NCBI GenBank assembly: GCA_947073285.1
Contig: CAMTJT010000003.1
Coordinates: forward strand, 1 to 64,000
DNA length: 64,000 bases
Source: an uncultured Clostridium sp.
Lineage (GTDB): Bacteria; Bacillota; Clostridia; TANB77; CAG-508
Direction of reading: 5' to 3'
The position numbers and the translations under genes were made by a program. Positions 1-3,453 of the stretch are shown one piece after another (position 1 is the stretch's first letter; each line of letters begins with the position of its first letter). Under the pieces are notes generated by a model. It saw nothing but the letters and a program-made list of their open reading frames with translations, searched no databases and had not been told where the DNA came from.

Positions 1-44
<44 letters not shown>

Positions 45-250
45 AGTTTCAAGGCTTTTATGTCTCTTATCTGTTTTCATGTTTCTTTTCCTCCTAGTTT
101 TTCATCTTCATAATTCTCTATTTTATATTATACTTTTTTACCTATAAAGTAAATAGTTGTTACATAATTGTTATAAAACTGTAATAATTATCCATATTTT
201 TGTAACATTTTTCTTTTTTTTGAATATATATAATCATGAGGTGAAAAATA

Positions 251-1422: not shown

Positions 1423-1479
1423 AAAAATAAAATACTTTATAAGATTAAGCACATATTTCTTATAAAGTATTTTATTTTT
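1423..1479. terminator. bidirectional intrinsic terminator
   Basis: Arms at 1423-1443 and 1459-1479 are a perfect 21-base inverted repeat flanked by A and T runs. It serves the convergent genes ending at 1376 (+) and 1478 (-); its distal arm overlaps the stop codon of the latter. Confidence 0.9.
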
Positions 1480-2809
1480 ATTTTATTACTTGTATTCCTA
1501 TTTCTATTGCCCATTGTTGTTCTTGGACATCTGTTCCGATATAAATTAGTTCTCCATTTTCTATTTTTAATTTATCTTTATATTTTTCAGGTAATTCTAT
1601 TTGGCTTGTTGCTTCTACTATTTCAAAAGCACAATCTTTTTCTGCTTGTTCTTCTTGTTTGCTTACTAATTCATCTTGTTTATTTGTAAGCTCTGTTATT
1701 TTATTTGAAATTATTTGTATACTAGCAGTTACTTTTTCTATGGTCTTTTCTATATCTTCATTAGTATAAACTGATAATCCTATTAATTGCAATTCTTTTA
1801 AATTTGTTTCTTCTATATAAGGAAATGTTCCAGAAAATAGCTTTTTATCACTAATCCCTGTATATAATAACTGCCTTTGTATTTCTTTTAAGGTTTGTTC
1901 TATTTCTATTTGTATTACCTGTCTACTTTTAAAGTCTGTAATGCTTATTGATCTTGTAGCTATTTCTTCTATCCTTTGTAACTTTTGATTTATATCATTA
2001 TAGGTATCTTGGATAATCTCTATTAATTTTATTGTAGTTCCCCATGATTCTGCTTTTTTAGTTGCCTCTTCTTTTGTAAAATTAGTTCCATCTCCAAAAA
2101 TTTCATTATATATTGACTGTATATTTTGTTCTAAATTAGTTGTGCTCTCTTTCATCCTTCCTACTACATTTTGTTTCGCTCCTAATTTTGATCTTTCTAT
2201 ATCTATTTTATCGATTGCTTTTTCTACTTTTTTCGTTGCTTCTTCTAAATTATTATAGTCAATTGTTTCAGAACCATAAATATTTCCCCATTTTAGATTT
2301 TCTACCCTTACAACTAATTTTCCTTGATCAAAATAACCATTGTCTAATCGAATGGTATAAGGATTATTGGTATCAATCAAAAGCTTTCCTTCATATTCTG
2401 TTTCATCACTTATTTTATTTATCTCTATTATAAGTTGGGAAATTTCAGTTTTTATAGCATCTATGTCTTTCACAGTTAAAGTATCGTTTTGCATATGTAC
2501 TAATAATTCATGCATTCTTTGTAACATTCCATACATCTCTTTTAAATTGCCTTCTATTATTTGAATTACTTCTATTCCTTTTTCTGCATTTTCTTTTCCT
2601 TTTTGTAAAGATGCTATTTGTTTTTCTAGTTCTTCTTTCAATTGTAATATATCTCTTTTTTTATAGAGTGATTGCCTTATTTCTTCCATTTCTAGTTGTT
2701 CTTGATATTGCATTACTTCTGTTTTAAAACTAACTTCTTGTGCCATGGTAATAAATCCTCCATCTGGCAAAGCTACTGTGACTGTAATGCCCGCTAATAT
2801 GAGTAGCAC
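1478..2809 (-). CDS. type IV prepilin-like segment fused to two flagellin-like modules, leader missing
   Basis: The N-terminus is a type IV pilin-like hydrophobic stretch (LLILAGITVTVALPDGG). A flagellin D1-like region follows at about residues 65-145: NAEKGIEVIQIIEG, then LQRMHELLVHMQNDT, then EGKLLID, matching the flagellin pattern NAQDGISLIQ...LQRMRELA...GKKLLD. A flagellin C-terminal-like helix around AIDKIDIERSKLGAKQN follows. A second, weaker module covers about residues 258-385 (QKLQRIEEIATRS, SDKKLFSGTF, then a long helix). The GTG at 2809 is the first usable start. In-frame hydrophobic codons extend upstream to about 2831 before a stop, so the charged leader and cleavage-site residues of a prepilin are absent and there is no ribosome-binding site. 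The family assignments are my pattern reading. The gene may be a 5'-truncated remnant. Confidence 0.6.
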   Translation of the reverse strand: MLLILAGITVTVALPDGGFITMAQEVSFKTEVMQYQEQLEMEEIRQSLYKKRDILQLKEELEKQIASLQKGKENAEKGIEVIQIIEGNLKEMYGMLQRMHELLVHMQNDTLTVKDIDAIKTEISQLIIEINKISDETEYEGKLLIDTNNPYTIRLDNGYFDQGKLVVRVENLKWGNIYGSETIDYNNLEEATKKVEKAIDKIDIERSKLGAKQNVVGRMKESTTNLEQNIQSIYNEIFGDGTNFTKEEATKKAESWGTTIKLIEIIQDTYNDINQKLQRIEEIATRSISITDFKSRQVIQIEIEQTLKEIQRQLLYTGISDKKLFSGTFPYIEETNLKELQLIGLSVYTNEDIEKTIEKVTASIQIISNKITELTNKQDELVSKQEEQAEKDCAFEIVEATSQIELPEKYKDKLKIENGELIYIGTDVQEQQWAIEIGIQVIK

Positions 2810-2838
2810 TACTATGGTTACTACTAAAGCTAGTTATA

Positions 2839-3453
2839 TTATTCTAATATGATTTCTCCTTCATCGCCAATGTAAGCACATGTTTTAATTTCTTCTTCTA
2901 TTTCATCTTTTTCTATTTCTTTTACTACATTTGCAATACGTACTTGCACAGATTCAATTGAGGCTGCTGCAATAATTGCCTCTTTATTACCTTTTGCTCC
3001 TGCATGTGCTACCCCTCTTAAAATACCTAGGATAACAATATTTTCTCCTGCTAGCACTTCTGCTCCACTATTGACATCTCCTAGCACTACTAGACTTCCT
3101 TCATATTCTATTTTTTGACCTGAACGTAAAGAGCCTCTATGGAATTTGGTTTCTGAGGTAGCTATTTCTTTACTAAAAGTTCTTTTGATACCATGTAATC
3201 CTAATATTTTTGGGCTATCGAATTTTATTTCTACTGGAAGTACTTTTTGGATGGTTTCTTGTATTTGCTCCATTTCCTTGTTTTTAAATACTTTTCCTGT
3301 GATGAAGATTGGTGTGGTATCTTCTTTATATAGTTTTTTTAGTTCTGTTACTTTTTTCTTTAATTCTTGTAAGATTTGTTTTTGTTCTGCTTGCATATCT
3401 ATTTTCATAGTAACTTTATCTTTTTTGGTTTGTATAGTAATACATTCTTTCAT
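2839..3453 (-). CDS. minC: septum site-determining protein MinC
   Basis: MinC inhibits FtsZ polymerisation and, with MinD, keeps division away from the poles. The 204-aa length fits. The N-terminal half is the FtsZ-binding domain. The C-terminal half has the right-handed beta-helix signature: RSGQKIEYEGSLVVLGDVNS, then GAEVLAGENIVILGILRGVAHAG in overlapping turns, then a Tyr-Ile-Gly-Asp-Glu-Gly end. No minD lies in the window. The ATG is directly preceded by an in-frame stop, so this start is fixed. The nearest Shine-Dalgarno (AAAGGAGAAAA) is about 30 bases upstream, separated by a short hairpin at 3464-3478. Downstream of mrdA on the same strand, as in many Clostridia. Confidence 0.92.
   Translation of the reverse strand: MKECITIQTKKDKVTMKIDMQAEQKQILQELKKKVTELKKLYKEDTTPIFITGKVFKNKEMEQIQETIQKVLPVEIKFDSPKILGLHGIKRTFSKEIATSETKFHRGSLRSGQKIEYEGSLVVLGDVNSGAEVLAGENIVILGILRGVAHAGAKGNKEAIIAAASIESVQVRIANVVKEIEKDEIEEEIKTCAYIGDEGEIILE

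Follow-up and report, generated by a model that had tools for sequence, protein, structure and literature searches.

An open frame in the window (the whole stretch of DNA analysed, 64,000 nucleotides of a contig from an uncultured Clostridium sp.) joins the N-terminal helix of a type IV pilin to tandem copies of the flagellin D1 domain, without the flagellin D0 part. It belongs to a family that we interpret, with rather better than even confidence, as modular type IV pilins that display flagellin D1, and the copy in the window is 5′-truncated. An earlier note on this DNA had read the frame as a pilin-type helix followed by N- and C-terminal flagellin patterns and a second, diverged flagellin-like set, with D0 replaced by the pilin-like part, and had proposed profile searches, structure prediction, a search for relatives with prepilin leaders and a survey of pilus and flagellar genes as checks. 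The reading as a fusion of pilin and D1 stands, and neither outcome that the note had named as refuting it, profile searches without a flagellin match or relatives showing the pilin-like start to be chance, was obtained; overlooked was the 5′ truncation of the window copy, which in its present form could not be made as a prepilin. The features are listed in Table 1.

Table 1. Features of the fusion gene and its surroundings in the window.
Feature	Position	Strand	Evidence
Open frame, 451 codons (stop codon 1480..1478)	2833..1481	minus	open reading frame
Pilin N-terminal module without leader: helix LALVVTIVVLLILAGITVTV, then ALPDGGFITMAQEVSFKTEVMQYQE	2660..2833	minus	common to more than 20 places in the genome; aligned to the relatives' intact leaders
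Flagellin D1 N-terminal part, copy 1 (Flagellin_N positions 46–137)	2366..2641	minus	profile match; fold match, Z 17
Flagellin D1 C-terminal helix, copy 1 (AIDKIDIERSKLGAKQN)	2105..2233	minus	Flagellin_C E 0.007, below cut-off; kept in relatives; inside fold match
Diverged second flagellin D1 N-terminal part (Flagellin_N positions 68–137)	1826..2032	minus	14.9 bits, E 0.026; equivalent place in G011, G396 and G299
C-terminal tail (..YKDKLKIENGELIYIGTDVQEQQWAIEIGIQVIK), common to four fusions	1481..1603	minus	alignment
Inverted repeat of 22 bases, A/T on either side, extending into the stop codon; resembles a terminator in each direction	1423..1479	strand-neutral	sequence
In-frame stop TAA immediately before the helix codons	2834..2836	minus	translation and upstream scan
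minC, at the end of the mreBCD-pbp2-minC run	2839..3453	minus	open reading frame and gene order
First ATG with Shine-Dalgarno (GGAGG at 2757–2761, 10 bases away); 422-aa product without membrane helix	2744..2746	minus	sequence

The frame has the character of a gene. A random frame of equal dinucleotide make-up would be expected to contain about 42 stops, against none here, and the G+C content by codon position (0.44/0.25/0.14) follows a gene-like pattern. The translation opens with LALVVTIVVLLILAGITVTVALPDGGFITMAQEV..., with the flagellin-like part after it, and the tail at its other end is confined to the fusions among the 79 pilin-type frames scanned.

Three lines of evidence identify the part behind the helix as flagellin D1. 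First, the Pfam profile Flagellin_N matches residues 65–156 of the window protein over profile positions 46–137 of 139 (E 2.4e-20, 73.5 bits; cut-off 26.6 bits), and is also above cut-off in all five relatives that have leaders. Second, an NCBIfam search with the window protein returned flagellins and FlgL nearly alone, the flagellin models reaching E 5.7e-22, and a sequence search of the PDB returned flagellins only, the best being that of Roseburia hominis (9hpz, E 1.3e-19). Third, the predicted fold agrees. A full-length model built from two sequences (the relative L059 and the window protein) was poor (pLDDT 55), its best Foldseek matches still being flagellins, and the first D1 module was therefore folded by itself. 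The separate model of residues 60–250 (pLDDT 72, pTM 0.67) gave only flagellins among the Foldseek matches to the PDB that were listed (at least 50, best E 5e-7), and VIA-align placed it on flagellin residues 45–237 with a Z score of 17.0 and 2.2 Å over 176 residues. The Z score alone is a weaker argument, because the domain consists of long helices, but sequence match and predicted fold together make the assignment of residues 60–250 to a D1 domain lacking D0 a firm one.

The remaining flagellin-like parts are fainter. Flagellin_C matches residues 201–243 below its cut-off. The second D1 copy, weak alone in the window protein, scores 18.4 bits in G011, 19.5 in G396 and 23.5 in G299. The D0 helices are missing from both ends in all members, with no match starting before Flagellin_N position 45 or extending past Flagellin_C position 48. 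The N-terminal D1 pattern, the C-terminal helix and the diverged second set that the earlier note described are all to be found, and the pilin helix does stand in the place of D0.

The pilin-type helix at the start of the frame is likewise genuine. Matches to the first 50–60 residues occur at more than 20 other places in the genome, mostly with 40–66% identity (E down to 4.7e-10), and there a leader followed by GITLIALVVTIVVLLILAGI precedes unrelated C-terminal parts; the other prepilins of this genome bear differing C-terminal domains. This recurrence, together with the presence of the helix in relatives, rules out a chance hydrophobic stretch. Against the pilin reading, the Pfam N_methyl profile finds the fusions only below cut-off (best 15.8 bits vs 21.2), and in the alignment Glu at mature position 5 is not present in the fusions, which have Ala, Ser or Val instead. 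Since the pilin of the genome's own type IV pilus (T4P) locus also has Ala at this position, lack of Glu5 does not set the fusions apart from the other pilins of the genome. The viral contigs searched contained the pilin start only and no fusion.

Whole-genome searches of 390 genomes sampled from the family found the fusion in at least seven, spread over six genera; because few candidates were scored per genome, these counts are lower bounds. Besides the window genome, the carriers are G011, G354, G396, G189, G299 and G263. Intact prepilin leaders are present in five of these, representing five other species in five genera: G011 (467 aa, leader MQEKVKVDKGITLIALVV, 42% identical to the window protein over its full length), G354 (459 aa), G396 (390 aa), G189 (359 aa) and G299 (544 aa), all five with start codon and prepilin leader. 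In these relatives a class III leader ending in Gly is followed by about 20 hydrophobic residues, and they supply the full-length leadered versions that the earlier note had proposed to look for. The G263 copy (454 codons) is truncated further in, where the flagellin part begins, and is missing the whole pilin part. The genes neighbouring the fusion vary between members. Among 385 genomes sampled from the order and 283 from the class, the candidates scored outside the family were ordinary flagellins only, in which the Flagellin_N match starts behind the pilin positions. The fusion D1 modules form a group to the exclusion of the order and class flagellins in 98% of bootstraps, which makes a single origin likely, if not proved, because the branches of the tree are very long. 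Several weak candidates were set aside: by eye, the proteins that hold the Flagellin_N matches in G335, G122, G243, G321 and G387 resemble a relaxase, RecN, glutamine synthetase, an SMC protein and cyclic glucan synthase, respectively, and the G300 candidate combines a prepilin start with an ordinary coiled coil.

The window copy differs from its leadered relatives at its 5′ end. The minC stop codon (2841..2839) lies 5 bases ahead of the helix codons, and neither translation nor upstream scan found a start codon, basic leader or Gly before the helix; the helix itself is present and the class III leader is missing. A frame error concealing an upstream leader was rejected, since no in-frame or shifted start after minC yields a basic leader. 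The ATG at 2746 is the only start with a Shine-Dalgarno sequence and is downstream of most of the helix module. A link to minD was also discarded: minD-minE-ftsW/rodA sit apart from minC in the window genome, and as relatives also keep them away from minC, the window gene displaced nothing. This 5′-truncated copy behind minC is best read as a leaderless relic, a silent copy or the source of a cytosolic product. That it is a plain unexpressed pseudogene, left by a rearrangement in a family functional elsewhere, comes close to an even chance in our estimation: such a remnant would have no leader or start ahead of the helix and could well have a stop immediately upstream, and G263 provides a second truncated member, although the open 451 codons with their gene-like composition and the retained internal ATG and Shine-Dalgarno sequence sit less well with decay. 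This explanation applies to the window copy alone and can hold alongside modular pilins as the best explanation of the family. The alternative that the real gene has a leader, lost through an assembly error at the repeated pilin start, we regard as unlikely. The window genome is a draft of 59 contigs and the pilin start DNA, which is repeated, terminates many of them, but this contig continues for about 112 kb across the junction, and the adjoining end of minC and its stop are intact.

The genomes that carry the fusion have pilus genes and no detected flagellar export gate. FlhA was not found in any of the seven and was detected in the flagellated control G064, and PilB and PilT are adjacent in all seven. 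The window genome has one T4P locus, encoding a GITLIALVV pilin, an A24 prepilin peptidase, PilB, PilT and PilC, so that the evidence for prepilin peptidase and PilC is from this genome and that for PilB and PilT from all seven. Across the 390 family genomes, Flagellin_N matches above cut-off are the fusions alone. A further alternative is a decayed true flagellin whose start is merely pilin-like, to which the closeness of the D1 part to flagellin models (up to E 5.7e-22) could be credited. We consider this extremely improbable, as it is contradicted by the intact prepilin leaders of the relatives and by the lack of D0 at both ends in every member; a true flagellin or flagellar remnant is rejected on the absence of FlhA together with the lack of any conventional flagellin above cut-off in the family genomes.

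On the minus strand at window positions 1–110 there is another prepilin gene start, with AGGAGG, ATG and the leader MKTDKRHKSLETV, behind which a (GA)n tract runs off the contig end; contig C2 (G000:C2, L121) begins with a (GA)n tract, then LYSKQLKKEK-GITLIALVV, in a single open frame of 1048 codons. These are probably two halves of one gene split at a phase-variable dinucleotide repeat, and long AG or AC tracts are also found upstream of prepilins in L055, L152 and L167. In nine of about 18 prepilin genes of the window genome (L106–L111, L115, L119 and L120) the GITLIALVV helix is not in frame with the start codon, ribosome site and basic leader, the offset being a constant +1 step, and two such genes have complete frames of 501 and 527 codons; these genes may be phase-off, use a programmed frameshift or share descent from a broken copy. 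Contigs C38, C28, C8, C6, C25, C31, C16, C27, C48 and C53 end 50–350 bases from a prepilin start. The assembly apparently breaks at this near-identical start DNA, which is a candidate substrate for gene conversion among pilin genes. Some prepilin-type proteins (in L002 and L103) end, by eye, in a formylglycine-generating/C-type-lectin-like domain (..GNVYGIYDMSGGSWEYV..), whose fold diversity-generating retroelements frequently employ.

In Neisseria, the pilS cassettes are a silent stock that recombines into the expressed pilin locus, and leaderless pilin genes such as the window copy might likewise be donors for an expressed prepilin locus. We think this improbable. The many prepilin genes with near-identical start DNA, often at contig ends, the truncated 5′ sides of two fusions (window and G263) and the out-of-frame leaders of half the prepilin genes in the window genome are what such a stock might look like; however, the D1 part is single-copy in the window genome, and leaders are nearly all in frame in G011 and G015.

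We favor modular type IV pilins as the explanation of the family. In flagella, D0 drives growth of the filament and D1 forms the outer tube of the swimming filament and is the part recognised by TLR5; in pili, the pilin helix drives assembly. The fusion may thus have exchanged the part for flagellar assembly for that for pilus assembly, flagellin D1 having been captured by a pilin gene in a lineage without flagella, probably once, and having diverged later. Judging from their leaders (..K/R-G before ITLIALVV), full-length members would be cleaved by prepilin peptidase, and the helix would insert the fusion into the membrane and then into the pilus, from which one to three D1 bundles would project, probably at or near the tip. 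By analogy with Streptococcus sanguinis PilB, the full-length fusion could be a minor pilin presenting the D1 bundles, which may serve as a binding module for mucus, glycans, other cells or each other. The window copy would be exported as a pilin only if recombination supplied a leader, and may now be silent, decaying or expressed as the cytosolic protein from the internal ATG. A broader proposal, which in our judgment is evenly balanced, is that a flagella-less lineage turned flagellin D1 into a pilus-borne module and so put the subunits of two unrelated filament machines in one protein; contacts between D1 domains might lead to filaments that are hybrid or bundled, or endow the pilus with binding and immune properties resembling those of flagellin. 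The presence of D1 on a pilin in bacteria without flagella suggests that D1 has a use of its own beyond motility. The fusion also offers a natural system for learning which D1 properties (self-association, adhesion, immune recognition) survive without D0, and broadens the range of domains displayed by type IV pili.

Compared with bacterial flagellins (FliC/Hag, e.g. Roseburia hominis 9hpz and B. subtilis 5wjw), the fusions share D1 in sequence and fold, corresponding to flagellin residues 45–237, but they lack D0 at both ends, have D1 in tandem and a prepilin leader, and occur in genomes without FlhA. The D1 model of the window protein also matches, at Z 16.6, PDB entries 2zbi, 3k8v and 3k8w, solved structures of cell-surface flagellin homologues, a case of the flagellin fold reported on the cell surface; these are not known to have been described as fused to a pilin. 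The earlier statement that no protein with this order had been described holds to the extent that no description of a prepilin–flagellin fusion was found in the open-access literature, but pilins with a grafted functional module are already familiar in general under the name 'modular pilins', from a survey whose main text makes no mention of flagellin (PMC8179133). That survey presents grafted adhesive modules as established in S. sanguinis, where PilB has a vWA module, which binds host proteins and is presumed to lie at the pilus tip, and PilC a lectin module (PMC8179133). The fusions resemble these modular pilins, as that text describes them, in having a pilin N-terminus with a bulky grafted domain, a monoderm host and a T4P locus (PMC8179133), and differ in that the graft is tandem flagellin D1, that Glu5 is absent and that the window copy has no leader. 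By this analogy, the fusion would work like a modular pilin that carries flagellin D1, and not as a flagellin.
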